A stretch of DNA of 29,320 nt. Origin: a virus. The DNA lies in the IMG/VR virus record IMGVR_UViG_3300027797_000096, positions 1 to 29,320 of that record. One strand, given 5' to 3'. Shown piece by piece: positions 1-27,390 of this stretch. The notes under the pieces are model-generated. The model saw nothing but the letters and a program-made list of their open reading frames with translations, did not search any database and had not been told where the DNA came from. The translations under genes were made by a program, and so were the position numbers. Position 1 is the first letter of the stretch; every line of letters starts with the position of its first letter.

Positions 1-847
1 CAGCTACCAACGATTGTGTTCTAGAAGCAATTGCATCAAACACAACACCGGGGAAAGTTCCAGTATTGAATCCTATTTTAACCACGTTGGCAGACGCTGT
101 CATTGTTGTAGATAACACTGTGCCAGACAAACTCAAGGAATAAGTGCCAGGGCCCCCGGTTGTGCCTGACAGTTGTCCAGTAATTATTGTGCCAGTTGCT
201 ATGCCATTTGCTGCAACCACTTGGCCCACCGATAACGAACCAACAGCAATGCTAGTAACTGTTAGCACATTACCAAATTGACTTCCTATAAACTGAGATG
301 TGTTTGTGAATCCTGGTATGGGCAAAGCTGGAGTAAAAGTAGTTTTGCTAAAAATACCAAGAATGGTTCTTGCCACATACAATACCAGTATGGTTTGTGT
401 TCTGCCTGCAGTATCTATAACATCTTCTACATTGAATCCCGTAATTCCCTGATTGGAATTGTAGATTGGGCCAGCAAGCACAGTATTAAGTCCGTCGTTA
501 AAATGCATCTGACCCAACACATTGTCAATCCAAATATCACCCACTCCAATGTTGCTTGGCACTGTGGCTGAAACAATTGTTCCGCTTGTGGTAGTGAATG
601 CAGATCCATTGTAAATTTTAAGTCTATTTTCACTGGTGTCGTACCATAATTGGCCGGTCAACGGATAGTTGGGTTGACTTGAATTGGAGAAATTTTCCAA
701 CAACCTTACAAAGTTATCATTAAAAAATCCACCATACCCTGTGGAGTTTTTACCTATAAGTGTGAGGTCTGTGACTGTTTGATTTATGGTACCATCGTTA
801 ACTTTAGTTAACGTTGTGCCATTGGTGAGTGTAATGTTATAGCTCAT
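1..847 (-). CDS. Tail fibre-like structural protein, N-terminal part (gene runs off the window at base 1)
   Basis: The first 282 codons are open and no stop is reached before the window edge. The start is ATG at 847-845; its A is the last base of the upstream gene's TAA (TAATG overlap), so translation is probably coupled, and only a weak GGG lies upstream. The first 90 residues are paralogous to the N-terminus of the upstream fibre gene: both have a DGTIN segment, then LLENF, then a GQLWYDTS motif followed by L-K-x-Y-[ND]-G. In fibre proteins of marine T4-like phages such a shared N-terminus is likely the virion attachment part (inference). Further on, around residues 190-250, is a glycine-rich module with VGQVV and GIATGTII that recurs in the giant protein of this window. 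No receptor-binding end is visible because the C-terminus is missing. Structural or fibre role is likely; the exact role is unknown. Confidence 0.85.
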   Translation of the reverse strand, partial: MSYNITLTNGTTLTKVNDGTINQTVTDLTLIGKNSTGYGGFFNDNFVRLLENFSNSSQPNYPLTGQLWYDTSENRLKIYNGSAFTTTSGTIVSATVPSNIGVGDIWIDNVLGQMHFNDGLNTVLAGPIYNSNQGITGFNVEDVIDTAGRTQTILVLYVARTILGIFSKTTFTPALPIPGFTNTSQFIGSQFGNVLTVTSIAVGSLSVGQVVAANGIATGTIITGQLSGTTGGPGTYSLSLSGTVLSTTMTASANVVKIGFNTGTFPGVVFDAIASRTQSLVA

Positions 848-3093
848 TAAATTTTACCCGTAAATATTATGTAGTTAATAGTTTGGTACGGATTCATTAC
901 ATTAATACCCGATCCAGTTGCGCCATTAACTATTCCGGTATTAGGAATGCCTGAACCTGTGCTAGAACCACTTAAACCATAACCTGCTGTGGCGCCGCTG
1001 GCAGAATCCGACGCACTGCCTGGAGAACTTCCAGCATAGTATGAAACGCCGGCAGCACTTTTCAAAGTATGTGTGTGATCTGGCAAGTTGGCAGATGTAA
1101 GTGCAACAGATCCAGTTGCAGACATATTACTTGCACCCACAACACTGGCAGCAACTTCATTGACTCGATGTGCAGAAGTGCTGGGATTGCCGTTCAAGTC
1201 AGTAACAGTGTTAATCTGAGTGCCACCATTTTTGCTAGGAACAGTATTGTTGTCGTTAATCATGTTGTCAGCACCCAACGGAAAACGGCTTCGTAGGTCA
1301 GGTAGTGCAAATGTTCCAGCACCTAACAAGTATGCTGAATTTTTATAAGTAAATCCAATAACGCTAAACAAATCTGGATATGCTGAAATTAAAACCTCAG
1401 ATCCGTCACAGAACAAGTAGCCTGTTGGCAACAATGTTCCGGCAAATGGCAGTATGGTGGCAACAGGAACCAATGCCAAATGCTGTGTAAATACATTCTT
1501 GGTCATCTTGAGCAAGCCAGAACCTGCTCTGAAAACTAATAACTGGTCACCAACAAACGAATCAGACGCAGCTGGTTTACTGCTGATAACATTAGCACTG
1601 ATGGTTGTATTAAAAACAGCAGTACCAGTTTCACTTTGTCCATTAAAACTTACAGAATTACTAGTTAAGTCGCCTGCAAGGCTGAAAATAGTTGGACTGG
1701 CCAACAAAGCTGCAGATCCACTTACACTGCCTTCTAATATGCCAGAAAATACTCCAGAAAAATTTCCAGCAAAGCTGCTTGCATAAATGTTTCTAAAAGG
1801 TCGTGTTAGTGATCCAATATCATACACACCTGTTGCCACATATGGAATTCCCAAGTTGGTTGCTTCAGTTGCGTTTGTGCTGTATCCTGGCACCAGTACT
1901 GGAGCTGCAATAGGAGTCAATGAGTTATCATAGTAATTGAAGAAACTTTGTCCATACACAGTCAAACTGTTGCCAATAATGGCTTTTTTTGCCACTGCTA
2001 AACCGCCCTGAGAAACAATACTGCCTGCGGCTGTGGTAAACAATGTGCCGGTGCTGTAACTGGCATCAGCTGTGCCCAGTATGTTAAGACCCGTGGATGC
2101 TGTGATAGTACCAGTCACATCCAATGCCGTGGCTGGATCTATTTTATCAACACCGATACCAACCTTGCCTGAAGGGTCAGCATGAATTACTGTGGTTAGC
2201 ACACCAGAAGAATTGGTTAATCTGATATTTAGACTTGAACCGCTTCCGCCATAAGTGATTGTGGGTGTGTTATTGGTTACGCCAATGTTAAGTCCCAAGT
2301 TGGAACCTATACTGATACCAGTGTCAACACGAATGTTGAACGGAAAATTAGTAACGTTTGTGGTGCCGTCAGTGGTTAAAAAATTACTTGCATTGATCAC
2401 AGCACCGTTGACTAATAAACCATCAGCACTGACGGCTGTTCCATGAAATCTAGTTGGACTCACTGTGCTGGTTGCATCAACTGTGCTGAGTGTGATGCCT
2501 TGATTCACTGTGGCAAATCCCAGTATGGTGGCTTTGGGTATAAATTTTTCTTTACTTATTATGCTGATTCTAGAATTATTGGCATACATGGATATAACAC
2601 TGTGAGGAATGTTACTTGTATCAATAATTTCTTCAACAATTGGTCCTGTTTGTGTGCCTGCGCTGAACTGTGGTCCAATCAGTACCCAGTTACTGCCTGT
2701 GAAAAAATACAACTGATTTGTTGAAATATTTGACCACAAGTCACCTGCCACACTGCTGGCAACCGCTGGCGCAGACGAACTTTTTTTCAAGTTACCAGCA
2801 GTTGACCAGTTGGTGCCGTCATAAACTTTTAGTATGCTGGTACTGGTATCGTACCATAATTGCCCTTGAAGTGGTGGACCCATTGGATTATTAGGGTCAG
2901 TGCCTGGAGCAAATGGTGATGCAAAATTTTCTAACAGATGTAAAAAATCTTCAGCAATTGCTTCACTGTATTTTGGATAAGATTGACCAACGAATTTTAA
3001 ACTGGTTGATGTGGAATTAATAGTACCATCTGCAACCCTGATTGGCACTTTGTTTGGGTTTGTGGTATCAGTATAAGAAACTTGATAAGTCAT
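847..3093 (-). CDS. Short tail fibre-like protein with tail collar domain (receptor-binding candidate)
   Basis: A 748-residue protein starting at ATG 3093. An in-frame TTG five codons upstream would give 753 residues, but the ATG has a Shine-Dalgarno GGGAG six bases before it. Residues 1-85 share their pattern with the next fibre gene (DGTIN, LLENFA, GQLWYDTS), probably the baseplate attachment segment. The middle has phage-fibre motifs such as KVGIGVDKIDPATALDVTG, then a beta-rich region. Around residues 543-610 is a phage tail collar domain (LPFAG, PTGYLFCDGSE, LPDLRSRFPLG). An H-T-H motif near residue 672 resembles the H-x-H metal site of T4 gp12, and the end has the NVMNPYQTINYII pattern typical of collar and short-fibre proteins. 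It is likely a trimeric fibre that contacts the host. Whether it is a true gp12 equivalent cannot be told from sequence alone. Confidence 0.9.
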   Translation of the reverse strand: MTYQVSYTDTTNPNKVPIRVADGTINSTSTSLKFVGQSYPKYSEAIAEDFLHLLENFASPFAPGTDPNNPMGPPLQGQLWYDTSTSILKVYDGTNWSTAGNLKKSSSAPAVASSVAGDLWSNISTNQLYFFTGSNWVLIGPQFSAGTQTGPIVEEIIDTSNIPHSVISMYANNSRISIISKEKFIPKATILGFATVNQGITLSTVDATSTVSPTRFHGTAVSADGLLVNGAVINASNFLTTDGTTNVTNFPFNIRVDTGISIGSNLGLNIGVTNNTPTITYGGSGSSLNIRLTNSSGVLTTVIHADPSGKVGIGVDKIDPATALDVTGTITASTGLNILGTADASYSTGTLFTTAAGSIVSQGGLAVAKKAIIGNSLTVYGQSFFNYYDNSLTPIAAPVLVPGYSTNATEATNLGIPYVATGVYDIGSLTRPFRNIYASSFAGNFSGVFSGILEGSVSGSAALLASPTIFSLAGDLTSNSVSFNGQSETGTAVFNTTISANVISSKPAASDSFVGDQLLVFRAGSGLLKMTKNVFTQHLALVPVATILPFAGTLLPTGYLFCDGSEVLISAYPDLFSVIGFTYKNSAYLLGAGTFALPDLRSRFPLGADNMINDNNTVPSKNGGTQINTVTDLNGNPSTSAHRVNEVAASVVGASNMSATGSVALTSANLPDHTHTLKSAAGVSYYAGSSPGSASDSASGATAGYGLSGSSTGSGIPNTGIVNGATGSGINVMNPYQTINYIIFTGKI

Positions 3094-3094
3094 T

Positions 3095-3706
3095 TTATAC
3101 TCCCACAAGGCCAGTTAGACTTTGTATACGCACAGTGTAGTCAATTTGAATAAGTCTATTCAAACTTTTAAGAACTGGATGAAAAATAACATGTGTCAAT
3201 AACAAACTTTGGCCGGTTGGGCTATAGCTTACCAGTCCAAGTTCGTCAAAAGTAAAAGTGCTGCTGTTGTCAGTTGTGGTATCAAATGCTGTTTGTCCGC
3301 TGGGTTCGCCGTAATCTAGCAAACAAGTGACAAAAATATCACTGTAATTTGTACCAGTGGTGTGTCTAACTTCTGTAAAATTTCTAGTGGGATCTGTGTT
3401 GGTACTACTTCGTTCATCAACTACCTTGCTGTATGTTTGATTATATAAACTGGCATTGGCGCCAGATGAGTTTGGTGTAAGATAGCTGACAATTCCAGTA
3501 GGATCAATTGCTGTGCCGCCGTTGCCAAATGCCATTTGGTAGATAAATCCGCCGGCAACACTGTTGGCCAACGACTGGGCCATGGCAATACTGATGTTTT
3601 CATAGTGGATGGCATTGCGTTTATTGATATAAACTTCAGCAGAAATGGGGTCATATATTTTGATATGTCCTTCTATGTGGATTCCAGTCTGGTCTTTAGT
3701 CTGCAT
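3095..3706 (-). CDS. Conserved-type phage virion structural protein, role unknown
   Basis: A 203-residue protein with no signal peptide or membrane segment. Its phrasing (GIHIEGHIKIYD near the start, KRNAIHYEN, MAFGNGGTAID, LLDYGEPSGQ, FDELGL, and LTHVIFHPVLKSLNRLIQID near the end) resembles a small structural protein that I associate with tail and baseplate clusters of marine T4-like phages; I cannot attach a T4 gene number. The start ATG at 3706 has an AGAGAGA-type ribosome site. It is the first gene after a 43-base gap carrying a GATAAATA element, so it probably heads its own late transcript together with the two fibre genes downstream. Its stop codon is one base from the next gene's ATG, so the two are likely translated together. 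A small adaptor between baseplate and fibre is possible but is only inference. Confidence 0.8.
   Translation of the reverse strand: MQTKDQTGIHIEGHIKIYDPISAEVYINKRNAIHYENISIAMAQSLANSVAGGFIYQMAFGNGGTAIDPTGIVSYLTPNSSGANASLYNQTYSKVVDERSSTNTDPTRNFTEVRHTTGTNYSDIFVTCLLDYGEPSGQTAFDTTTDNSSTFTFDELGLVSYSPTGQSLLLTHVIFHPVLKSLNRLIQIDYTVRIQSLTGLVGV
3100..3104 (-). promoter_or_regulatory. Ribosome binding site GGGAG that decides the fibre gene start
   Basis: On the minus strand GGGAG is followed by TATAAA and then ATG at 3093. The six-base spacing favours this ATG over the in-frame TTG at 3108, which itself lies just upstream of the site. Confidence 0.7.
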
Positions 3707-3749: not shown

Positions 3750-6446
3750 CTAGTTTATTGTTATATCAATGCTTGGACTAGGAAATATTCCCAAACGAAC
3801 GTTCATAACATATCCAGTTGCAGTGTTTATTGTTATTGGTAACGTCGCCGATCCACTGTCAACCGTCATTGTACCAACTAGCGCCTTATTGATATTGGAA
3901 ACAGAAAACGGAGGAGTTGCGGCGGCGGACAGGGTAGTCCACCTAGCATTAACTCCAGTGTGTATTTCAACCCTTGTTGGATATTGTTCATAAAAAGTAG
4001 CTTCATAAATCATAGTAGGAGTGGTTTCAGCGGAGTTATAAACATGGTGTCCTTCCCATCTGATTCTAAATGTTCTATTTGGGGATGTTCCTTCAATCCC
4101 GTGATAAATTCGAAACGCTTTGTTATCTGCCGCAGATATCATAATTTTAGGGTAAGGAGGCTCAGCTGGGCCTAGTTGTGCATAAGCAACAGATCCTCCG
4201 CCAAATGTGATATAAGTGTTAGTGCCTATATACACACTGCTGTATGTTTGGCCTAAATATGTAATGTTAAATGGCAGAGGTACAGTCCAATATCCATCGT
4301 CTCCGCTTGATGATCCTGTATATGATAATCCAGCTGGCACAGTTGGAGTTGATAATGTTAGAGATCCTGCGCCAAGTAGATTGTTTGTGATAACACTGTG
4401 AGTTGCAGATCCAGAAATTGTTTCAATCCTATTACCAGTATTTGGTCTAGTATTAAAAAAAGCTGAACTAAGTATCGTGGCGCTTGATGAATAAACACCG
4501 CTTAGGCCGGTGTCTTGCAATGTAGGAGTAGTTGTTTGTGATCCTGGTTTAGCTGTTATTAAATATTGAACAGGTGTACCGTTTGGAATATTGGTGGTGG
4601 CGAGAGTGATAGTTGCAGTTTGTCCATTGGTCCTTGTTGAATAATCGGTTGACAAAGCAAAAGTTGCATTTTTATTAAAACTGTTTACAGCATTTCTTCT
4701 TGGGTAGACTTGGCCACTAGGAGGTCTATGTTTGTCGACAACTGAAGGAAACGGGGTTGGATAATAACCTCCAACATCTGCTGTTGGGTGTCTTGTTCCA
4801 CGAAGTACAAGCATCTGTACATTACTAGACGAATTAAATGATGGTCCTGCATCTTTAGAATCTTGAGCTCCGCCACTAGTACTTAACATAGTAGAAGGGC
4901 AAGCATTCTTGATATATGCTCTAGCATCAGCTTGTGTCATTCTAGGATATTTTTCAGCAAGACATGCAAGTACGCCAGCGGTCTGAGGACCACTCATGCT
5001 GGTTCCTGGACATTTTTTAAAATTATTATTAGTAGTGTCTGTTAGACCTAGTGCCGCTACTCGAGGATCTGTAGTATTGGTGTTATCATACAAATCTGAA
5101 TTTGCTTTCCAAATACTTTGAATTCCAGAGCCAGGTGCATAGCAATCAATACGAGGGCCATAATTACTAAATTCTGCTTTGTAATCTCCAACTTCAATTG
5201 AAGTTGCATCATATATATTTGTAGATGTTTCATTATGTTGACCACTTGCGCCAGAGCAAATAATTTTTGTACTTTCGGTGCCGCCATCGGCAGCTCCAGG
5301 ACTACTGCCACGATGAATGTAATATGTTGTGCCGTTCTGTATCATGGTATTATTATAATCCAGGCCGCCTATTGAATCTTGGTAAAAATAACTATTACCT
5401 GCACTTGCTACAATAATTACACCTTCCGCCATTGCTTCAATCATATCAACATCAGTTGCAGTATTTCTTGCAGGAAATGCGCCTCCAATATTTAATCGAG
5501 CAATATTTTGTATAACGTTTGCATCCCAAACATACGATCCTTGTGTACCACTTGTTGGAAAATATTCAACGCCTCGGATTGTTAGTTTAGATATTGAAGC
5601 AGTTGATAAGGCGCCGCCTCGATAACCCCAACTGTTATTCATTACTGTGGGATTTTTTACACCAGTTAACGGATTAACTGGTTTATTTTTGTGGAATTCT
5701 TTTACATAATCAATTGAGTCATTATAGGTTAAATTAAAAATGTTTGCATCTCGTGCCCAGCCTTGTGTATTACCAGCAACAGTGCCTGTGGTGTGGGAGC
5801 CATGTTCTTGTAGTCTTTCAGCACTGTAAGGGTATTCTCCCACAGCTCCGCCAGTAACTGCTGGATTATGCTGGTACCAATTGTATTCTACCATTCGAGG
5901 GTAACCAGTACCATCTGGGTTTTTTTGATATTCTAATGTTGTTGGATATGGGCATCCATCGTCCATAATTACAACGTCAACATTTCTGCCAGAAGAATCT
6001 GCTATTATAGAAGCTGATTGATTGATTGTTCCTGTTGATCCCCAGTTACTGATGTCTGTTGCTCTAAGAACACGAAGTAGTCCCCAATTAATATCTGTTG
6101 CACTACTTGCTACAGCTTTGTTAAATTGAGCAGATGTTTGTTCAAAACTAAAAGGCGCTTTAATGAATCCAAGGTCTTCAGGATTCAATTCAACTGCCAA
6201 AACTCGCGGATCATCAAGTACCAGTGCCGCTTCATCATACGTCATCATATATTCAGTATTCCTACTCGATGGTTTACGATTAACGCATTCTATTGATCTA
6301 ATAGGTAATACATTATTAATGCCGCTGCCGTTTGTTTCCATGTTGTCATAAAATTCTGTTGAATCTTCAAAGTTTTTTAAAGTAACAATATACTTTTTTA
6401 AACTTTTATCATCAGGATTACCAAGATGTGGAATCGGATCTGTCAT
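3750..6446 (-). CDS. Subtilisin-family (S8) serine protease with propeptide-like N-terminus and C-terminal beta domain
   Basis: An 898-residue protein. The catalytic set is readable: Asp162 in IMDDG, His215 in EHGSHTTGTVAG, oxyanion Asn351 in ASAGNS, and Ser483 in GTSMSGP. The S8 fold spans about residues 135-520. Residues 15-105 (KKYIVTLKNF ... DDPRVLAVELNPED) look like an inhibitor I9-type propeptide, so the enzyme may mature by self-cleavage. No signal peptide is seen, which suits a virion or cytoplasmic protein. Residues 520-650 are Ser/Thr/Gly-rich linker and beta sequence. Around 660-840 is a domain with DDGYWTVPLPF and a VYIGTNTYITFGG stretch, resembling nidogen-like or related beta-sandwich modules. 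A GAGG ribosome site lies six bases before ATG 6446, and the upstream stop is one base away (TAACATG). Its place among baseplate and fibre genes suggests a virion-borne enzyme acting on host surface protein, or a maturation protease for the structural proteins. Family assignment is firm; role is inferred. Confidence 0.93.
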   Translation of the reverse strand: MTDPIPHLGNPDDKSLKKYIVTLKNFEDSTEFYDNMETNGSGINNVLPIRSIECVNRKPSSRNTEYMMTYDEAALVLDDPRVLAVELNPEDLGFIKAPFSFEQTSAQFNKAVASSATDINWGLLRVLRATDISNWGSTGTINQSASIIADSSGRNVDVVIMDDGCPYPTTLEYQKNPDGTGYPRMVEYNWYQHNPAVTGGAVGEYPYSAERLQEHGSHTTGTVAGNTQGWARDANIFNLTYNDSIDYVKEFHKNKPVNPLTGVKNPTVMNNSWGYRGGALSTASISKLTIRGVEYFPTSGTQGSYVWDANVIQNIARLNIGGAFPARNTATDVDMIEAMAEGVIIVASAGNSYFYQDSIGGLDYNNTMIQNGTTYYIHRGSSPGAADGGTESTKIICSGASGQHNETSTNIYDATSIEVGDYKAEFSNYGPRIDCYAPGSGIQSIWKANSDLYDNTNTTDPRVAALGLTDTTNNNFKKCPGTSMSGPQTAGVLACLAEKYPRMTQADARAYIKNACPSTMLSTSGGAQDSKDAGPSFNSSSNVQMLVLRGTRHPTADVGGYYPTPFPSVVDKHRPPSGQVYPRRNAVNSFNKNATFALSTDYSTRTNGQTATITLATTNIPNGTPVQYLITAKPGSQTTTPTLQDTGLSGVYSSSATILSSAFFNTRPNTGNRIETISGSATHSVITNNLLGAGSLTLSTPTVPAGLSYTGSSSGDDGYWTVPLPFNITYLGQTYSSVYIGTNTYITFGGGSVAYAQLGPAEPPYPKIMISAADNKAFRIYHGIEGTSPNRTFRIRWEGHHVYNSAETTPTMIYEATFYEQYPTRVEIHTGVNARWTTLSAAATPPFSVSNINKALVGTMTVDSGSATLPITINTATGYVMNVRLGIFPSPSIDITIN

Positions 6447-6447
6447 G

Positions 6448-7944
6448 TTATACCTCTAGTTGAACTAGCTTCATTGTTATTGTAATTGCGGCAGTACTAC
6501 CGCTTCTGTTAACTACTTTAACTTGTATACTAGTTGACGGCGATACCTCATCACTAAATCCAAGTACTGCTGGAGAAAATAGTTGTGTATTTGCACCAGT
6601 TGTAATAACTTCTGCAATTACGCCCGATCCTGGTGTTGGATCTGAAGTGATGGTTCGACTTGCATCTGCAGTTCTTGCGGCGGAAGAAGTATAAACAGTT
6701 ACCCATGCGGCGGCAGAAGTTTGGATGCTTAATAGCATATAACTTTTCCAACCAGTTATAGTGATATTTCCGGCTGCGTCATTTGCCAATGATGCTGTTG
6801 TGCCGGCAATTGAATTTCTTGCAGGTATAGAAGAGTATTGAGGAATATTCAAAACGTTGCCAACAAAAGTTGCCGCACCACTGGATCCAGTTGTGGTAAG
6901 CGTTATGGGTGCTTGGTAGTCAGTTCCGGCCACTGCAATGGATAATGCACCTGTAGTAGTTGTGCTTTTAACAATGCCAGTTGCCAATGCACTGGTACCC
7001 GGAGCATAATCTGTTCCGCTGGTTGCGGCCGAACGAGTTGTTCCCGAAGATTTCACTATGCCGGTGACTGATTGTGCTGATTGATAGTCAGTACCTGCCA
7101 CAGCTGCAACAAGTGCATTGGCTCCATTGCCTTTCACAATACCAGTAATTGTACCTATTGGTGCTTGATAGTCAGTTCCGGCCACGGCCGCTGATACAGC
7201 AGTGCCGTTGCCTTTTAATACACCAGAGACACTGGTAGTGATTGTGATGGCAGGAGTTGATGAACTATTTGCCACAGTTCCTGCAAAACCGTTGACGCTG
7301 ACCACACTAATTGAAGTCACAGAGCCAGTACCTGCCACTGAAGTTGGTTTCCATTGACTTGTGCCAGCTTCCCAAGTCAACACTTGACCGTTGGTAGGTG
7401 CCGGAGACACTGTGTTGACGTCACTTAACGCATTAATACTGGTGACAGAATATGCTGCTGGAACATCGCTGGCACTGGCCAACGCTACCCAGGCGCCGCT
7501 GTGTGCAAAATACATCTTTCCATCTGCATGACTGTGTGCAATGGCTCCATGATATGTAACCGCGCTTGGAAATGCAGCTTGATTGTCATAGTGAAAAGGA
7601 ATAACACTGCTTGCTATTGGTGCAACAATTGCTCCAGAATCATTAATTGTCACTAATGAATTTTGAAGCAATCTTCCAGTTACACCGTCAAACCGTGTGA
7701 TTGCATTGTCTGTTGTTGACGACGGGCCAGCTGTGCCCGTGGCGCTAATAACTCCATTGTTGATTACAACAGATGTACCGTCAACTTTGACACCGCCCAG
7801 TACACTTGTTGTTGCTGTTGGTAATGAATAGATAGAATTGTACAGTTCCGTAAAGTTTGAGTTGATCTTTTGAGCGCCAGTACGTAGTGTATCACCAGTT
7901 CCGTCGTTTGGTAACGATCCTGTTTCAATAATTTGTTTTGTCAT
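6448..7944 (-). CDS. Repeat-containing phage structural protein (fibre/baseplate type)
   Basis: A 498-residue protein. It opens with ETGSLPNDGTGDTLRTGAQK followed by INSNFTELYN, a motif I recognise from the N-termini of many marine T4-like structural proteins. Residues 60-190 contain the fibre-like phrases NAITRFDGVTGRLLQNS and GQVLTWEAGTSQWKP. Residues 240-350 hold four tandem units of about 27 residues, each starting G-[IV]-[VL]-K and ending near GTDYQ. The last 120 residues form a separate beta-rich domain (GWKSYMLLSIQTS ... KVVNRSGSTAAITITMK). No enzymatic motif is visible. It lies between the giant protein and the protease; upstream stop TAA and this ATG are three bases apart, with AGGGA just before. 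Likely a virion protein of unknown position; a decoration, whisker or short-fibre role is possible. Confidence 0.85.
   Translation of the reverse strand: MTKQIIETGSLPNDGTGDTLRTGAQKINSNFTELYNSIYSLPTATTSVLGGVKVDGTSVVINNGVISATGTAGPSSTTDNAITRFDGVTGRLLQNSLVTINDSGAIVAPIASSVIPFHYDNQAAFPSAVTYHGAIAHSHADGKMYFAHSGAWVALASASDVPAAYSVTSINALSDVNTVSPAPTNGQVLTWEAGTSQWKPTSVAGTGSVTSISVVSVNGFAGTVANSSSTPAITITTSVSGVLKGNGTAVSAAVAGTDYQAPIGTITGIVKGNGANALVAAVAGTDYQSAQSVTGIVKSSGTTRSAATSGTDYAPGTSALATGIVKSTTTTGALSIAVAGTDYQAPITLTTTGSSGAATFVGNVLNIPQYSSIPARNSIAGTTASLANDAAGNITITGWKSYMLLSIQTSAAAWVTVYTSSAARTADASRTITSDPTPGSGVIAEVITTGANTQLFSPAVLGFSDEVSPSTSIQVKVVNRSGSTAAITITMKLVQLEV
6896..7223 (-). repeat. Four tandem 27-residue repeats (GIVK ... 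GTDYQ) within the 498-residue protein
   Basis: Translated on the minus strand, four units follow each other: GVLKGNG..AAVAGTDYQAP, GIVKGNG..AAVAGTDYQSA, GIVKSSG..ATSGTDYAPG and GIVKSTT..IAVAGTDYQAP. Unit length is 26-28 residues. The repeat is seen at protein level and partly at DNA level (tgcttgatagtcagttccggcc recurs in parts). Units of this kind are frequent in phage fibre proteins and suggest a repetitive beta shaft. Confidence 0.85.
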
Positions 7945-22900: not shown

Positions 22901-23433
22901 GTAAACACAAATTGGTTGTTGGTTCCTTGTCTCTGAACTTCCACAGTGTATGTGCTATTAATAACTCGCTCTTCACCATAAATTGTTATGGTGTCAGGGC
23001 CATATGGTAGCCAATAATAATTTTGAAAATTAACAAACTTGTCCCAATCAATGTGTGGATTCCAACTGTAAAATTCTTGCTTATTAAGTCTAGCATGATT
23101 ATCAGTGTTGCCGCCAAACACATTGATTTGATTTATATAATCAATGTAATCTTTAAAGAAGGTAACATTGCCCACTGTGTCTTTGATTGTTACGCCGGGC
23201 TCTAATTGATAATCTTGTCGTGATTTATCAGATGCTTCTATATACAAATCTGTTCCCACACTTGCTCTGGCATTTTCTCTACCAACGTAACCACTGACTT
23301 TTGTCAATGATCCAGGTTGAAACAGCTGATCTATTGTGCTTTGTAAAAATTTCTTGTTGGCTGGAGTTTGATAAAACTTAGGCAGTAAATTTGCACTAAG
23401 TCCCTTGTTGCCATTGACATTGGAAGTGGCCAT
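7948..23433 (-). CDS. Giant 5161-residue baseplate/tail structural protein (gp7/gp8 position)
   Basis: One uninterrupted frame of 5161 residues follows the gp6 gene with a TAATG overlap and a GGAGG site nine bases upstream. It occupies the T4 gp7/gp8 position, but I see no direct similarity to those proteins. The N-terminus (LLPKFYQTPANKKFLQSTID, SGYVGRENARAS, FVNFQNYYWLPYGPDT) and segments near 1240 (ESAWTRSSYYPF), 1860 (YQGMIREKGTQN) and 3520 (EVKPYRTKIREY) resemble very large structural proteins of marine T4-like phages, probably the conserved core. Inserted modules: seven CBM5/12-like repeats (starting at residues 1444, 1576, 1755, 2300, 4180, 4917, 4992); an FG-GAP-like beta-propeller (2213-2845); seven VNG/dY beta modules (about 690, 932, 3722, 4375, 4452, 4580, 4700); paired GSGY repeats (3221-3288, 3592-3649); and V-x-GTG modules (2433-2582, 3932-4130). 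The C-terminus has a serine run and repeated FD motifs. No signal peptide or membrane segment is seen. A structural role is near certain; the glycan-binding role is inferred. Confidence 0.92.
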   Translation of the reverse strand: MATSNVNGNKGLSANLLPKFYQTPANKKFLQSTIDQLFQPGSLTKVSGYVGRENARASVGTDLYIEASDKSRQDYQLEPGVTIKDTVGNVTFFKDYIDYINQINVFGGNTDNHARLNKQEFYSWNPHIDWDKFVNFQNYYWLPYGPDTITIYGEERVINSTYTVEVQRQGTNNQFVFTPDGLTPNPVLRLYRGKTYTFNINSPNNPFSFKTARSTGTTDRYNYQGSVSASGVTSGTITFTVTKQTPSILYYQSENDIDLGGAIQISELLENTSIDVEAEILGKKTATLDNGITLSNGMKLSFGGIVYPESYANGQFYVEGVGTAIKLISTDILEIVSPYSATNTLPFDSMPWDVEPFDDATGYAGTVDYITINRSSQDRNPWSRYNRWFHKDVIAASAQFNNNTISLDQTTRAIRPIIEFLPNIKLHNLGTTAIPDIDLIDTFTQDAFSTIEGTIGYNIDNFDLLPGMLVIFTADPDPLVQNKIYKVEYVDVRNLNTGSNQIHLVEVATPEIGQVVLVRQGAKYQSKMFWFNGITWIEGQTKTATNQAPLFDMFDNDGVSFSNLSTYTGSTFAGTKIFSYKIPNSGVPDPVLGFPLSYQNVNNIGDIVFNFNLATDTFEYKKTSIVETQNINVGYLSIRDYGGNLTYSNGWETSVVTNSQAAVRIYKNSGLTNNFPIDIFDDSSKLSDLEVKLYVNGIRLDPSFWTINSTSAYKTISLTTPIGLDDVLTIRAFSAQAINQNGYYEIPLNFQNNPLNDNMTNFTLGEVADHVASIVDNIPESMETSEEFNNSQTTANQTYDPDHENIRDLGNITPYGTKFVQHSGPLSLGVYHICSESNNVIKAMEQARTDYNSFKQNFINSASSLGVDGDPVTLFEMVLNKLNNNKPRVAPYYLSDMVPYGAAISTSLKVVDYRIKNYPLTTVFSLDKLSNKAVGIYLNGVQLVHGQDYNFNVSGFVSIDPSVNLANGNIIRTVEYENTDGSFVPATPTKLGMWPAFVPKKYLDTTLINPQMVIQGHDGSVVLAYNDYRDDLILELEKRIFNNIKVKYDTDIFDISKIIPSYNRKSDYSRTEFNNVLAPNFYKWTGLVGKDLTTPLNYDRTNSFTYNYALSGAPDKTSIPAYWRGIYRYILDTDRPHLCPWEMLGFAIEPKWWTTVYGPAPYSSDNLPMWQDIADGAVKEPNTPPVYFSDRAKPFLMSHIPVDEFGNLISPLQSGLASGLSQPSINNNFVFGDGSPVESAWTRSSYYPFSVVIASLLLTPANTFGMLLDRSRVVRNIAGQLIYSDTGLRLKPSDVLLPSTYSSSTRVQTAGLVNYIVDLIFNYIFSNNVAGYNSYSTDLSRLTPLLSYRVGAYTNKPQFNLLLESKTPSSTGNVFVPPDDYSVFLNKSTPVKKITYSGVVITKVSTGFEIKGYSLSQPYFKYYQFLGTGSRITVGGISEDYSEWTPGENYVLGSVVQYNGSYYRSTQNSVADETFNTFNFAKLPSLPMNGGSSANIRNKWDSNQVLVAPYGTLFPDIQSVVDFLLGYGEYLKDQGFLFNDFNKNYGTVSNWLSSANEFLFWTTQNWSTGVDKWQDWEANQSYTYGSIVKYDGDFYSALYNIPLSNAFDASKWNMLPGLSNVGSSVISLSPSANGINFTTNLAVVDSIASQFNPYEIFKVDGTPFDLTSLDSYHQDGKVAYIPKSTEGIYGASFYLVQHEHVVIVNNTTIFNDIIYSPTSGYRRDRLKVSGYVTTGWTAGLDIPGFIFDAAKIDEWQPWKDYNVGDIAKYGQFYFQAEPMTGNLIPGSEKFDYKQWTKLLNKPTDQILPNWTTIASQFTDFYSADVDSFNTAQQTMAHHLIGYQKRQYLNNIIQDPVSEFKFYQGMIREKGTQNVLNQLFGVLNSENRESLTFYEEWAVRTGRYGTTNAFEEIEFILDESKYLNNPQATALVKNLDNKLNPFVVQQPITDVYVKPLGYTATPFPVFESTKSNQFLRSAGYVNSADVYVAISSTNQLLGQPVTSITVGISYIIKSVDATTDFTQIGATANTVGLSFVATGVGSGAGTVVLDPNKLNEGSYIWCAFDPAGWNVYRYTDIQIRATGATYANKLLTITTDVTPNLQVGTFIGLSQVPTLSGFYEVTSVVLNKITVSATIDAFPNLSVLQINEIIIYGLIPQRTSSIDDIDSILPTNLQKNDLVWTDNGGNGSWATWIYNPVFQQQLLSNTAPSANLQFGYVTSINKQGNLLAVGALNGNVVIYDKVGLQTPWIRRQEIQFPFSAQADFNALTLVASTIAISPDGTWLATGSPRVGNVSTKLKPSWSLSNTYQVGDIVSVGIDKAYQATLDVPANILVTNTYYWKNIPYIPVDNQGTNSSLMQQGMVSLYQKDSNNLYNLVDSIISPAPAAGQSFGETLEFGNSVLYIGATGNGGTVFKLSYTSTLNVSTAYDNVGSTGTTLKVTSAIGITSGMYVQSPAFLNSQTVNSVLSRIVFPVSVPGNITNSLGILIKVENITIGMLVTGTGVVAGAEIYSKGITSNGNVYIIVSASQNLLTSITQIQLDSDPTLIFAISTVSSANTLILSLPPTSTPVGTLNFVTTAWAYKDFVTSPSGVSYFGTGLSLSNDNSTLAVSSSDSVYLYNTVDSTLTRTYTGFTNTSNLAVSISGSGQYLAIGQGSTGTVNIYQTTGLTPLVPVQTLINHFNQEDRAFFGSKLAFMTDDTLVVYSQSGSTSISTTIDAYLELLSSYTYTDENGVTQVSTYVNDPKSAENINQTTFDNQSTRFVTPLPNAGRVDIYDRYATKWVYSESLDNIDIPASGYGVGFAVGSNSVVVGLPRLDNGLLMDTGKAYVYNKFPNNFTWKIYRSQIPVVNIGKIKKAFLYDRVTSKLLVELDIIDPNQGKVPGPADAEIKYKSFYDPATYFYSSLVSPGPTVNIDTGSYWASPQVGQLWWDLRTAKFIDPYFEDISYRNNAWNKLAQGASIDIYEWISSSLLPAAWDAIADTPEGLANGISGLSLYGNRAYSVTKSYNNITKKFINTYYYWVKNKAIVPTVEGRRLSAQSVSSLISNPRGNAYTYIALIGKDSFSIANISQYLNSTDTVLAIEYWTIDKVDQNVHSQWKLISKDTAVEIPDAIQQKWVDSLCGADEAGRPVPDINLPPKLKYGIENRPRQGMFINRTEALKQFVEAVNTIFLKYQITENYDIQGLELYDTQPTALSGKFDIVLDTDAELPYANINLFQAASLTPIIVDGRVTGIKIFATGKGYIIPPFIDIVGPGKGAVAKAIINSAGSIVSATIVSSGEGYNPDSTVCSVRSYSVLVKNDSLASGNWSIYSYDPNNNLWSRSLTQSFDVRNYWSKIDWYATGYNQFSSPDFVVHTTFDLNLIDVSIGQLVKVLKVNSGNWVLIEKFANLNTTDWTQNYTIVGIQNGTIQLSSSLYQTQFSAVGYDSSTFDQGAFDVKASTELRIILKTLKDNIFIGTDLKGTYLDLFLRSVRYAHSEQLYIDWIFKTSFVRATHHVGKLDQPVYYPIDNLSNFEDYVAEVKPYRTKIREYISQYTSLDPSYSAVTDFDLPSVVKNSSAFAINTAVSNGIITADQPEIQSYPWKFWLDNTGYSVTELIIVDGGSGYVTTPQVIITSDSGTGATAEAYFTNGIINRIILKTPGSGYLSAPTVSVNSGLSATGTPAKVVAIIGNGVARSNLVGIKFDRTNRKQYIINLDVTDSFVGSGSKKQFVLTWAPDIKVGKSSVYINDILVLRETYTLATETKIVNGQTQYYGTLTFIVSDIAVAPALNSKIVINYIKDISLLNAVDRIEFYYNPTTGMLGKELSQLMTGVDYGGNIVGNLGFASKNGWGVTPYALDKWDTYDNTYTDYVIQATATTRALPYAVDFTPVVGTNINVYHIKNYVISAPSDGTTLVWPFSLFINQPAVSVTTTVNSSSPSNISSTLVGYSTNIQSTLTATNGTAGQSSIAFDAVPNVVIGQYVSGTGVVAGSKVIQVAGTIVIISNNLTLDAAGNYNFYLLGTVLTVSSLTGIVAGMGVTGAGFSTQAVTKTQTVVVSGVTLRYVYITAAPNSIPTVGSTLTFVTNAAGSKTLTVANTANLKIGDVVTCASQTVFGYNTTIVSIENSTKLTLSQIIYSTLANNTSLLFTRILSQPIEVVSYSNGTILLSDPVLVGSHINIYGKLDPIRIDDPAYPVVSPGPWSASFGYSVGATVLFNNTKYVCKITHSAVSQFSVSLSAGNWREYNDNAVISTPVLGTTPAPLVLTTTKSDGSRSYTINIPNAYVVNDDDVFILRQSTSDGTIVPTDYDTDISGGDLVYSTARGILADDIVLDGDAFVSETTSPAPEEVVPGQIVDTLAIKVFDRPSSGSANIAIDNYVADGVTTTFGLRTIPVNTGSIILKIGNTVKTVNSDYTVDYENKRLVLSTAPAAKQILTIFVIGFSGSNILDLDYFVGDGDTTEFVTKAPWLDSFTGLVYVNGIVENPVFFKTDDTYEINNSVGMRFDMPVAAGALINYIIVSGDTRTFSVTNSEIIPTTGGTTYTLQNLVGRSLPNETNMIVRANQTILNAPVNSYFTIKSNIYSYPLDANRVTPYTISAQDVIVVANNILLVPGNDYSVDLAGVTVQLTRAAYSKYKNTKLTISITTNAGYSYNPTTNQITFKQAYTSSDVVQVTSSFNHNTLDVERTTLMVKSAANLTPETVQYYQYQSIIGGLITLDRAVLNESYVWVMKNSTLLVPGVDYKLLDDHLSIQLTNSLSLTDKISLMTFGSNVITAGISYMQFKDMLNRTIYKRLNLSKRTELLTDLRWNSTSIVLADGTNFEEPDIVRNSPGVIEIRGERIEYFAKTGNVLSKLRRGTSGTGIFDLNYAGTFVQDIGSSETVPYNDSVQTVQVLSNGTNIVKLSFAPTKGNQNSVDTNYEPTGVRAWFSNAGYLLIGTFDPVSSYKLNDVVVYNNSYYYCRKTVSLLSSRTVGVDYTPANSTYWTLYPTSIPVGYGQTDQIEVFVGGYDDIAMWTPNTIYNELDIVNVGNYTYRRKSGAAHTSKNTFANDSANWSFFIGNIRLQKQPYKVFNINQAPYSPAGDVTFDADFSVNGTANELRLTNKLAVGTTVTVVKRTLTLWDSSTNIMNDDSKIASFIKAAPGVWYTQYQLNTEGPVFVESSSSSFDSAATRFDGADLTFDQG
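8004..8018 (-). repeat. Trinucleotide run (AAG/CTT)5 coding for serines
   Basis: Five perfect AAG triplets on the plus strand encode a short serine run (ESSSSSFD) close to the C-terminus of the giant protein. Such runs can change length by slippage without breaking the frame; here it is short and may simply be a linker. Confidence 0.6.
8325..8460 (-). repeat. CBM5/12-like repeat 7 of the giant protein
   Basis: Residues 4992-5036: W-T-P-N-T-x-Y, then L-D-I-V, a Y-R-R strand and a closing W at residue 5032. The W-x(5)-Y ... Y ... W spacing matches the other six copies. Confidence 0.6.
8535..8685 (-). repeat. CBM5/12-like repeat 6 of the giant protein
   Basis: Residues 4917-4967: F-D-P-V-S-S-Y-K-L-N-D-V-V-V-Y, then SYYYCRK and a closing W at 4962. 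Phe replaces the first Trp. It is separated from repeat 7 by only about 30 residues, so these two form a tandem pair at the C-terminus. Confidence 0.6.
9190..10310 (-). repeat. Cluster of four VNG/dY beta modules in the giant protein
   Basis: Residues about 4375-4748 contain four related units of 45-50 residues: IILKIGNTV..SDYTVDY, LVYVNGIVE..DDTYEI, VIVVANNIL..NDYSVDL and YVWVMKNST..VDYKLLD. Each is followed by a hydrophobic strand and an alternating I-x-I or I-x-L strand. The pattern resembles the VYVNG ... Y units of T7-type tail fibre N-terminal domains. Three further single copies lie near residues 690, 932 and 3722. Confidence 0.65.
10765..10896 (-). repeat. CBM5/12-like repeat 5 of the giant protein
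   Basis: Residues 4180-4223: W-S-A-S-F-G-Y-S-V-G-A-T-V, then KYVCKI and the closing GNW at 4220. The conserved W, Y, G, V, Y and closing W are all present. Confidence 0.7.
11040..11640 (-). repeat. Region of V-x-GTG beta modules in the giant protein (second copy region)
   Basis: Residues about 3932-4130 contain repeated units such as VIGQYVSGTGVVAGS, IVAGMGVTGAGFS and LKIGDVVTCAS, each followed by T-x-I/V and a short beta strand. Related units lie at residues 2433-2582 and in the fibre gene at bases 95-275, so this is a module shared between genes. Confidence 0.6.
12490..12660 (-). repeat. Paired GSGY repeat, second copy
   Basis: Residues about 3592-3649: IIVDGGSGYVTTPQVIIT ... GTGATAEA, then IINRIILKTPGSGYLSAPTV. 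Two half-repeats of about 30 residues share GSGY-x(3)-P-x-V. The same double unit occurs at residues 3221-3288. Confidence 0.75.
13571..13772 (-). repeat. Paired GSGY repeat, first copy
   Basis: Residues about 3221-3288: IKIFATGKGYIIPPFIDIV ... KGAVAKAI, then SIVSATIVSSGEGYNPDSTV. It is a diverged version of the double unit at 12490-12660, with G-[KE]-GY in place of GSGY. Confidence 0.75.
15690..16135 (-). repeat. V-x-GTG beta modules inserted in propeller blade 3
   Basis: Residues about 2433-2582 contain ITSGMYVQSPAF and ITIGMLVTGTGVVAGAEI units related to those at residues 3932-4130. They lie between strand 4 of blade 3 (TVFKLSY) and the start of blade 4 (FGTGLSL), so they appear as an insertion within the propeller. 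Confidence 0.55.
16405..16536 (-). repeat. CBM5/12-like repeat 4, inserted in a propeller blade
   Basis: Residues 2300-2343: W-S-L-S-N-T-Y-Q-V-G-D-I-V, then AYQA and the closing YYW at 2338. It lies between the LATGSPRVG strand and the GMVSLYQKD strand of blade 2. Confidence 0.75.
18040..18171 (-). repeat. CBM5/12-like repeat 3 of the giant protein
   Basis: Residues 1755-1798: W-Q-P-W-K-D-Y-N-V-G-D-I-A-K-Y, then FYFQAE and the closing KQW. The W-x(5)-Y-x-x-GD-x-[VA]-x-Y core is fully present. Confidence 0.75.
18590..18708 (-). repeat. CBM5/12-like repeat 2 of the giant protein
   Basis: Residues 1576-1615: W-E-A-N-Q-S-Y-T-Y-G-S-I-V-K-Y, then FYSALYN and the closing SKW at 1612. All core aromatics are conserved. 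Confidence 0.75.
18970..19104 (-). repeat. CBM5/12-like repeat 1 of the giant protein
   Basis: Residues 1444-1488: W-T-P-G-E-N-Y-V-L-G-S-V-V-Q-Y, then YYRSTQN and an aromatic NFAKLPSLP end, where Phe takes the place of the closing Trp. Confidence 0.7.
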
Positions 23434-26400
23434 TAAACAGCGCCTCCAAATGTTGAGCTAGTTACTACTTGATTAGTGGTAACACTGTTTGACGAGGAAG
23501 TTATTGTTTTTAAATTGGTGCTGGTAAAGCCTGGAACAATAACAATATCGTTAGTGGTGGCACAACTTAAAAATATTTTATCACCCTGGCATTGTATTTC
23601 AAATAAATTACCAAAGTACAACCCTGGTTGTTTTGGTACTATGGCAAAATTTATAATGTCTGGTGCTAGTTGATTCATAACGTATGTGCTTAACTCAGTG
23701 AAGTAAAATGTGTCGCCAAAGTCCCAGTTGTCCAAGGTAAAGAAAGTGTTGATTGCAGCTAAAATTCGTGCTTGGACATCTGCATTTGACACAGCAGAGT
23801 TGGGATTAATCATGACGTTGAATGTTGCTTGTAGTGCAGGGGTTGCTTGGATGCCAAACAGCAAGGTATAGCTGACTGGATGGTATATGATTTCATCAGA
23901 AATTGACTTGATTAGATTTAAATTAGGAGCCAGCAATGTATTTAATTCATCGCTGCTAGGTGGCAGCGGAGGTGTGCCTCCAGAATTGATCCATTGTCTG
24001 AATGCAGTGTCATAGCTGGATGTCAACACGTAAATGTCAATTATATTGCTTGTGCCAGGATCTATCCTTGAGTCATAGTCTGCACTGTGTATATATTGAA
24101 ATTTCAAATCAGTTCTTCCAATGTATACTTTATAATCCAATGTTGGAGCCAATTGAGTGGCGCCTGAAAGATTCAACTGAAGCACAGTGTCAGTGTTCAC
24201 AACATAAAAATAAGTGCCATCAGGATAGTCCCTCAAGTTACCAATACTGCTTTGTGTTTGCACAATCCTCACTGGGCCTTTAACTGGATCATTTTGAATA
24301 TATTTGTAATCTTCCTGTCCTTCTGAAATCAGATATCGATGTTGCACAATATACTTTTTAAGAGGGTTAACTGATGGATTTACAATGTCTAAAAACATCT
24401 GAGGATTATTTGGTGTATTGGTTCCATCCGCATCTAAAAATGCCACAACCACTTTTTTAGAATCTACATAGCCGTCTTGGCCAATGTATTCAGATACTAT
24501 TTTCCAACCTAAATCCTGTGTAAATGAAACAGTGTCGTCGGGTTTTGGGTTAATACTGAGAACATTGATTTTGTCTGTTATGGTTTTGGATGTAACTGAA
24601 TCATAAATTTTTGCTGTGGTATCAAAATAGAAAGCAGATTGTTGATCGCTTTCAAATATGTAACGAAGATTTCTAGAAGTGATAGTATAAATTTCAGTAT
24701 TTGTGGTGAACAAAATTAACCAGCTGGAATCCAACTGTAAATTAGATTGATTTCCTTGATTTGCCAAATTAAATGTGTTTGTTAAATTTAAATTATTAGA
24801 AAATATAATTTGCCAAGTTTGGATTGTTGCATCGTAACGAAGGCCAAAGTTCTCGTTGGCAAAAATTAAATCAATCATTGTGGTTATGATTGACGGTGTA
24901 AGTGTTATTGCAAATTTAGGAATAATCTGTACAGCCAACGCACCTGTGGGGATCACTTTGTTCATCACAATAGGGCCAGTCGTGGTGTTGTCTATTGTGA
25001 TTTTGCCAGTGTTATTTCCAGTACCGTCGTCCACTACACTTATGACTTGTGCCCAAATATAACTGGCTGAGCCAGGCACAGTGGCTGTTCCAGTCACAAG
25101 TGCATTGTTGTTATTTGTGTCAAAGTATTTGCCTGTGGGTGCCATAAATTTTACTAAAGATCCTGCAGTCAAATACTTCAAATTAGTAGCAGTAAATGAC
25201 CCAACTTTATAAGGAGTACTATCTAAAATACTTCCAATGTAACCGCTGACTGAGTTACTGTCCAATGTGACCACATACCAGGAAATGTTGAGACTGATAT
25301 TCAAATAATCTAAGAAATTTGCATAATAAAAATTCTTTAAACTGTCAGAATCTAAAATATCATACAGGGTGTTGTATATTACTCCTTCGATATCAGTCTC
25401 AACTATAAAAGAAAAATTTACAGCAGCCGTGTATTCATCTTTATAAAGTATACCATCATCTGCAAACACATTAGTGGTACTGTATTTTCCAGTAGGATCT
25501 AACAAATCAAAATAACGGCTAATACCACTACTGGTTCTGTTTAATGATTTTACTTTTGAAACTTGCAAGTTGGTGGTCAACGGACTAATATTGTAATCCT
25601 CACCTGTTATCATACGATTTTGTGTATAATAGTTTTGAGGAGCATTGATCTTAACGCTGGCGTTTGTTTCAGCTGTGGTTGCATTAGCCACACTGGTTAC
25701 AAGATTCAAACTGATACTCAATGTTTCTAATTGATTGGTTGAACTTCTATAAGGAATATTAACAACCACGTTGACAATATCAGCTGGAGAAATAGTGTAA
25801 GATAAGCCGTTGCTTACTCTGTAATAAACTCTGAATCCGCCTAATGGCAAGTTACCAAATATGCCATCACTGAATGCCAAACTGATTGCATCACCGGCTC
25901 TGGTAATGACATTGTAAATATCTTTAATGTCAGAATTTAAACTGTTGTAAATTATGTTGTTGCCAGTGGTTGCAGGCACTTGTGTCCATAAAGATTTTTC
26001 CAAGCCGTTGCTTTGATCTAAACTATATAACCAAACATCAGAATCGTTGATGTTTTGTGTATTGATATCTATGCTCTGATTACTAGTTGGTTGTGTTACT
26101 GTGAAAGTGCCCTGGTTCAAAGTGCCTTGTGTAAAATTAAAAAAGAATCCAGTGCTTGGACTACCGGCGCCATATCCGTCGTCTTGATAAATGCATGCTG
26201 GTTTGTTTCCAACTTTTGGAGGCTCTTCGTATATGTAACTTTTTCCTTTGAATGTTGTGCTGGTAATTTCAAAATTCATGTTGCGGCCAGCAATTGTTTT
26301 GCTGAAAAAGTAAGCAGGTACATCTCTGTTTATTGCGTTGAATCTGTATTGCGCTGTGGGGATATTGCCAATGGTGGCAGCATCAATGGGATTGCCAAAT

Positions 26401-26906
26401 TGCTGAGTTGACGGTAAAGCAGCATTGATTACTTTGATGAATTGGTCATACCAGTTGTTGTTACTCGGGTCATTCCAACTGACAAATTGTCCTGACAAAT
26501 TTCTACCGTTGGAATCAATCACATTCTCTGTTGTTTGTACTGTGTTGAATTTTAACAAGCCTCTGGCAGCAACTGTTCTGCTGGCATTGTAGTTGATCAT
26601 ACGGGCCAGACGTAACACACTGTCTCGTCGTTCTGCAAGTTCTAAAAAGTTTTCGCGAGCATTCAAGTCAACTCGGAAAGCTATGCTTTGGCCCACATAT
26701 GCAATAAGGTCAATTAGGGCAAGGTATTCGCTAGACTCAATATAATCGTTAAAATCTTCAGGAAAATTAGTGCGAATATAGTCAATCATCGTACGACGAA
26801 GATTGTTAAAATCGTAGCTCTGGAAGTTGGCGTTCTTAAACGATTGGTATATTTTTTGCCAGTTTTCAGCAATCAATAAGTTATTTTGACGATCCGTTGA
26901 GCTCAT
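23433..26906 (-). CDS. 6: Baseplate wedge protein, gp6-like, enlarged
   Basis: An 1157-residue protein of the T4 gp6 / Baseplate_J type. The N-terminus (SYDFNNLRRTMIDYIR, then SEYLALIDLIAYVGQS, ARENFLELAERRDSVLRLAR) is characteristic of gp6 in marine T4-like phages. Residues 430-480 contain NAPQNYYTQNRMITGEDY, the conserved entry to the Baseplate_J core. The C-terminus (DNWDFGDTFYFTELSTYV, GNLFEIQC, DKIFLSC) matches the gp6 end. T4 gp6 is 660 residues, so this one carries several hundred extra residues, mostly between about 560 and 960. In T4, gp6 pairs and clamps gp7, gp25 and gp53 to form the wedge ring that triggers sheath contraction. Start ATG 26906 has AGGA six bases upstream, close behind a late promoter candidate. 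The next gene overlaps by one base. Confidence 0.93.
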   Translation of the reverse strand: MSSTDRQNNLLIAENWQKIYQSFKNANFQSYDFNNLRRTMIDYIRTNFPEDFNDYIESSEYLALIDLIAYVGQSIAFRVDLNARENFLELAERRDSVLRLARMINYNASRTVAARGLLKFNTVQTTENVIDSNGRNLSGQFVSWNDPSNNNWYDQFIKVINAALPSTQQFGNPIDAATIGNIPTAQYRFNAINRDVPAYFFSKTIAGRNMNFEITSTTFKGKSYIYEEPPKVGNKPACIYQDDGYGAGSPSTGFFFNFTQGTLNQGTFTVTQPTSNQSIDINTQNINDSDVWLYSLDQSNGLEKSLWTQVPATTGNNIIYNSLNSDIKDIYNVITRAGDAISLAFSDGIFGNLPLGGFRVYYRVSNGLSYTISPADIVNVVVNIPYRSSTNQLETLSISLNLVTSVANATTAETNASVKINAPQNYYTQNRMITGEDYNISPLTTNLQVSKVKSLNRTSSGISRYFDLLDPTGKYSTTNVFADDGILYKDEYTAAVNFSFIVETDIEGVIYNTLYDILDSDSLKNFYYANFLDYLNISLNISWYVVTLDSNSVSGYIGSILDSTPYKVGSFTATNLKYLTAGSLVKFMAPTGKYFDTNNNNALVTGTATVPGSASYIWAQVISVVDDGTGNNTGKITIDNTTTGPIVMNKVIPTGALAVQIIPKFAITLTPSIITTMIDLIFANENFGLRYDATIQTWQIIFSNNLNLTNTFNLANQGNQSNLQLDSSWLILFTTNTEIYTITSRNLRYIFESDQQSAFYFDTTAKIYDSVTSKTITDKINVLSINPKPDDTVSFTQDLGWKIVSEYIGQDGYVDSKKVVVAFLDADGTNTPNNPQMFLDIVNPSVNPLKKYIVQHRYLISEGQEDYKYIQNDPVKGPVRIVQTQSSIGNLRDYPDGTYFYVVNTDTVLQLNLSGATQLAPTLDYKVYIGRTDLKFQYIHSADYDSRIDPGTSNIIDIYVLTSSYDTAFRQWINSGGTPPLPPSSDELNTLLAPNLNLIKSISDEIIYHPVSYTLLFGIQATPALQATFNVMINPNSAVSNADVQARILAAINTFFTLDNWDFGDTFYFTELSTYVMNQLAPDIINFAIVPKQPGLYFGNLFEIQCQGDKIFLSCATTNDIVIVPGFTSTNLKTITSSSNSVTTNQVVTSSTFGGAV

Positions 26907-26924
26907 AGTAAGTCCTAATATCAG

Positions 26925-26932
26925 TATTTATC
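26925..26932 (-). promoter_or_regulatory. Candidate T4-type late promoter, GATAAATA(CT)
   Basis: Minus-strand GATAAATACT matches the T4 late consensus TATAAATACT at nine of ten positions. It lies in the 50-base gap between gp25 and gp6, with 18 bases between the element and the gp6 ATG. A start about seven bases downstream would leave a leader of roughly 12 bases containing the AGGA site. No -35 box is needed in this class. Confidence 0.65.
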
Positions 26933-26956
26933 GAATAAAATTATGTGCGTAGTTTA

Positions 26957-27388: not shown

Positions 27389-27390
27389 GA

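Follow-up and report, generated by a model that had tools for sequence, protein, structure and literature searches.

Most of the virion enzymes for which clearance of the host surface is known are polysaccharide depolymerases or peptidoglycan hydrolases. In the depolymerase tail spikes and branched tail adaptors, the enzyme gene lies beside gp10-like or fibre genes and is swappable between phages. Proteases of the S8 family are also on record, having been noted in T4-like cyanophages in 2010 (PMC3037559). The window analysed here, the whole 29,320-nt stretch of the viral record IMGVR_UViG_3300027797_000096 (positions 1-29,320), encodes a homologue of these cyanophage proteins (T4-GC_292; phrog_9158; S-H38, S-CREM1, S-WAM2, P-SSM2), and in S-H38 and S-CREM1 the order of genes is as in the window, with a long baseplate gene, a gp10-like gene and then S8. 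Cyanophage members of what we term class A share with the window both the domain that ends the upstream protein (adaptor A) and a short motif behind the protease domain, whereas in the P-SSM2 type (class B) the upstream domain and the motif are different. The window protein is longer than the cyanophage form (898 versus ~550 aa), carrying extra C-terminal beta domains, and its gene lies on a jumbo-type backbone.

By backbone, the window is nearest to two jumbo phages, Agrobacterium phage Atu_ph07 and Sinorhizobium phage Phosso, both of which have a baseplate cluster related to that of the window and an S8 protein near tail genes. However, these proteins are different, at about 1250-1290 aa (L215 5635-9390 and L216 9447-13310, respectively): they give no tblastn match with the window protein, are encoded elsewhere in the genome, and have no adaptor-A domain. 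Bacterial proteinase-K-like subtilases share the fold, the catalytic set and, by prediction, the propeptide-like domain with the window protein, which differs from them in lacking an evident hydrophobic N-terminal signal peptide, in being encoded among phage tail genes, and in having a disordered motif as well as C-terminal domains like those of fibres. Unlike the depolymerase tail spikes, the window enzyme is a protease and a separate polypeptide, and a profile search found no beta-helix depolymerase domain in it. In the Tfa and T4 gp38 chaperone or cap pairs (PMC10579305), the second gene likewise lies directly downstream of a fibre gene, but here that gene encodes a protease with an intact active site, and we found no sequence relation to those proteins.

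The protease gene and its operon

The original prediction placed a subtilisin-like protease between baseplate and fibre genes, and the gene order in the window bears this out. The predicted ORF is real, with an ATG start and 898 codons for amino acids, and lies on the minus strand, on which the prediction was silent (Table 1). In order of transcription, S8 is preceded by a gp5-like hub, gp25, a gp6-like wedge, a 5161-aa giant protein and a gp9/10-type protein, and is followed by genes for a small conserved protein and a collar-domain fibre, and then by the first part of a further fibre gene. The gp9/10-type protein (P0005) matches PF07880 at residues 3-40 (E 1e-07), corresponding to a baseplate-anchoring N-terminus. 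The hub matched OB-fold and C-terminal trimer models, with no match to a lysozyme domain. The two last fibre genes (2-847 and 847-3108, both minus strand) have the N-terminal domain phrog_15511 in common, which suggests that the fibres were duplicated in tandem and share one attachment site.

Table 1. Features of the protease locus in the window.
Feature	Position	Strand	Support
gp5-like hub	27391-29163	-	
gp25	26957-27388	-	
gp6-like	23433-26906	-	
Baseplate gene block	23433..29163	-	Profile matches (Pfam, phrog)
Giant protein, 5161 aa	7948..23433	-	
P0005, upstream partner, gp9/10-type baseplate or fibre protein, 498 aa	6448..7944	-	PF07880; phrog_677
Adaptor domain, last ~127 residues of P0005 (372-498), phrog_15343	6451..6831	-	C-terminal upstream of S8 in 86/86 loci
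Junction: P0005 stop codon, 1 nt, S8 ATG	6446..6450	-	
P0001, S8 protease gene, 898 aa	3750..6446	-	PF00082 E 1.4e-19; phrog_9158 E 1.8e-76; model; Foldseek
Propeptide-like N-terminal domain, about residues 13-95	6162..6410	-	AlphaFold secondary structure; Foldseek
S8 catalytic domain, about residues 119-520, boundaries approximate	4887..6092	-	Profile, model, Foldseek
Catalytic Asp162 codon	5961..5963	-	D in 86/86 loci; Glu in S-CAM1
Catalytic His215 codon	5802..5804	-	H in 86/86 loci
Oxyanion Asn351 codon	5394..5396	-	N in 86/86 loci
Nucleophile Ser483 codon (GTSMSGP)	4998..5000	-	S in 86/86 loci
Motif RPPSGQVYPR, residues 574-583, within disordered stretch 550-589	4698..4727	-	pLDDT 30-37
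C-terminal beta domains, residues 595-898	3753..4664	-	Model
P0004, small conserved protein downstream of S8, phrog_11259	3095..3706	-	Jumbo-phage homologues, <=54% identity
P0003, collar-domain tail fibre; in-frame ATG at residue 6	847..3108	-	PF07484 E 1.3e-17

The ORF matched Peptidase_S8 (PF00082) with an E-value of 2.5e-22 (72.7 bits against a cut-off of 21.8), and the phrog_9158 profile matched over the full domain, at residues 13-560. The catalytic set was located exactly where it had been predicted, at D162 (VVIMDDG), H215 (EHGSHTTG), N351 (SAGNS) and S483 (PGTSMSGP), with the motifs in the order correct for the family and GTS around the serine. Conservation in relatives, to which the original prediction was tied, was found throughout. 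All four residues are kept in 29/29 aligned phage sequences (the window counted in) and in each of 86 IMG/VR loci, a set that contains near-copies and comes from a scan favouring window-like sequences (63 sequences, isolates counted in, are left once near-copies are removed). These loci are 35-97% identical to the window, and the conservation is far above chance. Judging by these features of the sequence, the gene very probably encodes a real S8 protease that is predicted to be active. A T4-type prohead protease was rejected as an identity, as only the S8 family was matched and the gene sits among baseplate and fibre genes; the 'subtilisin-like' domain of tail sheaths (PF04984) was likewise rejected, the window protein having no match to it.

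One homologue, from a cultured cyanophage, departs from this pattern. In S-CAM1 (L046 6359-8614) the catalytic Asp is replaced by Glu (VDIVTLESG) and the domain contains an insertion, making it a natural variant for asking whether catalysis matters. Such a substitution would fit an S8 domain that is mainly a binding or structural part of the tail tip, with proteolysis incidental, as would the ability of a non-protease family to fill the same slot (see below). We regard this explanation as improbable, since binding alone would not require the catalytic set that all 86 loci maintain over 35-97% identity.

In an AlphaFold2 model of the window protein (pLDDT 80), the propeptide-like domain has the strand order beta-alpha-beta-beta-alpha-beta over residues 17-87, as in I9 propeptides, and the Foldseek matches of the model include the pro-forms 3afg, 3whi and 9ues. 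By sequence there is no match to Pfam I9; I9-type propeptides are common in S8 subtilases, but not universal. Based on the model, the protein is probably made as a proenzyme. The core finds its best PDB matches among proteinase-K-like enzymes, at a TM by target of 0.69-0.77. A portion of the C-terminal region is similar to a tail fibre from a Stenotrophomonas phage and to a protein encoded by cyanophage S-SRM01. Separately, a recurring segment, GTYYYICQFHSGM, was observed in the C-terminal parts of S8 proteins in L025 (S-H9-1), L027 (ACG-2014j), L151 and L167, and in a further protein family described below (L048). Segments of the GTYYYICQFHSGM type resemble the cupredoxin copper-site motif (Cys, His, Met), a candidate likeness.

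The two-gene module and the C-terminal motif

Adaptor A was first noticed in isolates, whose copies are 45-58% identical to that of the window. In 86/86 IMG/VR loci (class A), the gene directly upstream of S8 ends in this same ~126-aa domain, and the spacing from the upstream stop to the S8 ATG is 1 nt in 61 of them, with a range of -4 to +8 nt. The remainder of the adaptor-bearing protein differs between loci, with lengths of up to 1577 aa; a strict gp9/10 N-terminal pattern was present in 18/61 intact upstream proteins, and several more are similar. In a 161-kb relative, one ORF carries the motif and one carries the adaptor, and the two adjoin. Distances between adaptors correlate with distances between S8 proteins (r 0.37; reached in 0/2000 permutations), a correlation also expected from the shared descent of linked genes. 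We conclude that S8 is almost certainly the second half of a conserved two-gene module, of which an adaptor-ending baseplate or fibre gene is the first. The earlier view of the gene as a protease within a structural operon thus stands as far as synteny in relatives and the retained catalytic residues are concerned, but it had overlooked the obligate upstream adaptor partner, the shared C-terminal motif and the S53 or non-protease proteins that can occupy the slot.

This motif, roughly R-x-x-[ST]-G-x-x-[YFW]-P-R, is found just behind the protease domain in both S8 and S53 proteins, and the window sequence RPPSGQVYPR is the only such motif among the proteins of the window. The form R..(S/T)G..[YFW]PR, or one near it, occurs in 106 of 110 distinct S8 proteins, where shuffled tails would lead us to expect 8; the loose pattern was picked after viewing the sequences, such that this count describes that set and is not an independent test. 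In the ~550-aa S8 forms, the motif sits about 7 residues from the C-terminus. We modelled a natural fusion of adaptor and S8 (L063, a read-through chain in which a TAA located 3 nt before the S8 ATG is read as Gly) with AlphaFold, using an unpaired, shallow alignment. Both domains were folded, the adaptor as a beta-sandwich (pLDDT 91-98), while the motif was disordered and undocked. It is possible, if somewhat doubtful, that the motif mediates docking of the protease on the adaptor. A profile search of adaptor A against solved structures gave no match.

Class-B S8 proteins (P-SSM2-type) are more distant, and their upstream partner ends in a domain particular to that class, for which no relation to adaptor A was detectable (hhalign probability 0.1). 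After the protease domain, 4/5 of them carry a different motif, around [FY][NS]P[FY].

Backbone, lineages and other occupants of the slot

The closest relatives of the window S8 are metagenomic virus contigs, and an alignment-based scan recovered no fewer than 587 homologous stretches. The relatives in culture are T4-like cyanophages, in which the protein is annotated as a subtilisin-like protease, a peptidase or a hypothetical protein. The gp6-like protein and P0004 of the window have their closest counterparts in jumbo phages, and the adaptor and S8 pair is present on contigs of 270 and 275 kb; by these sequence affinities, the window backbone is of the jumbo-phage type. A cyanophage identity for the window virus was rejected on the same two proteins and on the absence of psbA from the 161-kb relative, which is possibly a fragment. 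Scans for tRNAs in the window and in this relative found none. In Phosso, a P0004 homologue follows directly after the long structural gene, and the window therefore has an extra pair, gp9/10-like and S8, at that point. In a quick tree of 63 S8 cores, contigs bearing P0004 and cyanophage isolates did not form two clean groups: the P0004 label changes 6 times, with at least 5 changes forced by well-supported branches, although contigs without the label are possibly too short to show P0004. The mixed labels suggest exchange between lineages.

Searching from the adaptor instead of from the protease gave 75 loci, in which the next gene was S8 in 64, an S53 protein in 5, P0004 in 4 and short ORFs only in 2. 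Among adaptor loci in bacterial or archaeal genome-bin contigs, which are probably viral, S8 follows in 5/8 and a third family in 3/8. The S53 proteins in the S8 slot (L144, L174, L183, L184 and L202) are of kumamolisin type and 411-425 aa long, and their C-terminal end carries the same motif as S8. Compared with kumamolisin (E 8.8e-31), the S53 protein matches from residue 31 on, implying that the usual long propeptide is absent. Members of the third family follow the adaptor with the same tight spacing and are 608-956 aa long, with an N-terminus like 'GNTGW...ALE' and no Pfam match; they were observed in S-BM3 (L047 6383-8209), Sf-CH1b (L048 6386-8683), S-SCSM1 (L217 45709-47679) and L208-L210. 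S-BM3 also encodes, three genes upstream of the adaptor gene, a far longer protein of the virion region that bears the annotation 'peptidase S8' (T4-GC_519; L047 1-3421). With an S53 protein or a non-protease found after the same adaptor, the slot looks exchangeable.

Four contigs of the window type (L171, L177, L179 and L182) have a gp9/10-like adaptor gene without S8, followed by P0004 after 57 nt. These contigs, which may be near-copies of one another, suggest that the protease is dispensable in some lineages, and could be used for a natural comparison in which the protease is missing. They also bear on a second option in the original prediction, namely that S8 matures the 5161-aa giant protein. 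The two genes do belong to one operon in the window, and in S-H38 and S-CREM1 the gp10-like and S8 pair likewise comes after a long gene. Nevertheless, we hold this option to be highly improbable: the pairs of many relatives lie in other contexts, with no detectable homologue of the giant C-terminus in the stretch examined; the four contigs keep a homologue of that C-terminus and have no adjoining S8; and in Phosso and Atu_ph07, which possess a long gene comparable to it, the S8 protein belongs to a different type and is encoded elsewhere.

Virion evidence and proposed role

Mass spectrometry identified 45 proteins in purified virions of phage S-SCSM1 (PMC9602691). In the GenBank record of this phage, a 'virion protein' label is placed on an S8 protein (SSCSM1_228) and its upstream partner (SSCSM1_227). 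The same label is borne by ORF213 and ORF214, both named as detected by mass spectrometry in PMC9602691, while several structural genes are without it. The label is also on SSCSM1_231, which is an adaptor-A fibre, and on the protein that follows it, SSCSM1_232. Through this annotation label, it is likely, though not certain, that the class-B S8 of S-SCSM1 rides in the virion. The virion-borne subtilisin of the original prediction accordingly gains likely support, which comes from a distant class-B homologue only. Taking the evidence together, we think there is a good probability that the S8 protease is a virion component.

An assembly role has to be weighed here, in which S8 would bind the nascent tip of the upstream-encoded fibre, trim or mature the fibre or other tail proteins, and then leave or stay inert. 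Coupled synthesis is suggested by the place of the gene directly downstream and by the almost constant spacing of 1 nt, fibres with a cognate chaperone cap encoded downstream are known (PMC10579305), and the propeptide-like domain would permit timed activation. However, it would be odd if a maturase specific for its substrate were replaced in the slot by an unrelated S53 protein or a non-protease, the S-SCSM1 homologue bears the 'virion protein' label, and the window S8 has extra fibre-like beta domains. We consider such a role unlikely, while granting it some weight.

On balance, and with somewhat better than even confidence, we favour a protease that is carried in the virion, mounted on a fibre and directed at host surface proteins. 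The intact active site, the tie to the end of a tail protein and the replaceability by another protease fit a fibre-mounted surface enzyme better than a single-substrate maturase; similarly, the obligate adaptor, the shared motif and the S53 or non-protease proteins in the slot speak more for an exchangeable part mounted on the fibre than for a maturase of the giant protein. The adaptor domain would form the distal end of a tail appendage, and the protease would be held there, perhaps via the R..(S/T)G..[YFW]PR motif, travelling in the virion with its propeptide removed. On adsorption, the enzyme may cut proteins of the host envelope or extracellular layer, allowing the phage to reach its receptor. 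That a surface protein is the target seems slightly to be preferred. The module would be a protein-degrading counterpart of the polysaccharide-depolymerase tail spikes.

The S8 family in phages was already known; what we have not found described is the pairing with the adaptor, the shared motif, the S53 alternative and the jumbo-type backbone. Literature searches on phage subtilases, tail fibres, S-layers and virion proteases, with most subscription journals outside their reach, returned no description of this pairing. The module suggests a role for phrog_9158 and phrog_15343, both now listed as of unknown function, and the pairing of adaptor and motif offers a marker for finding further tail-mounted proteins. 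More tentatively, aquatic T4-like and jumbo phages may share an exchangeable mount, in which a ~126-aa domain at the fibre end holds a separate protein via a short motif and S8, S53 or another family is swapped between lineages, giving many virions a protein-cutting tail tip. If true, a protease mounted on fibres this widely would imply that these abundant aquatic phages face a main barrier in protein surface layers.
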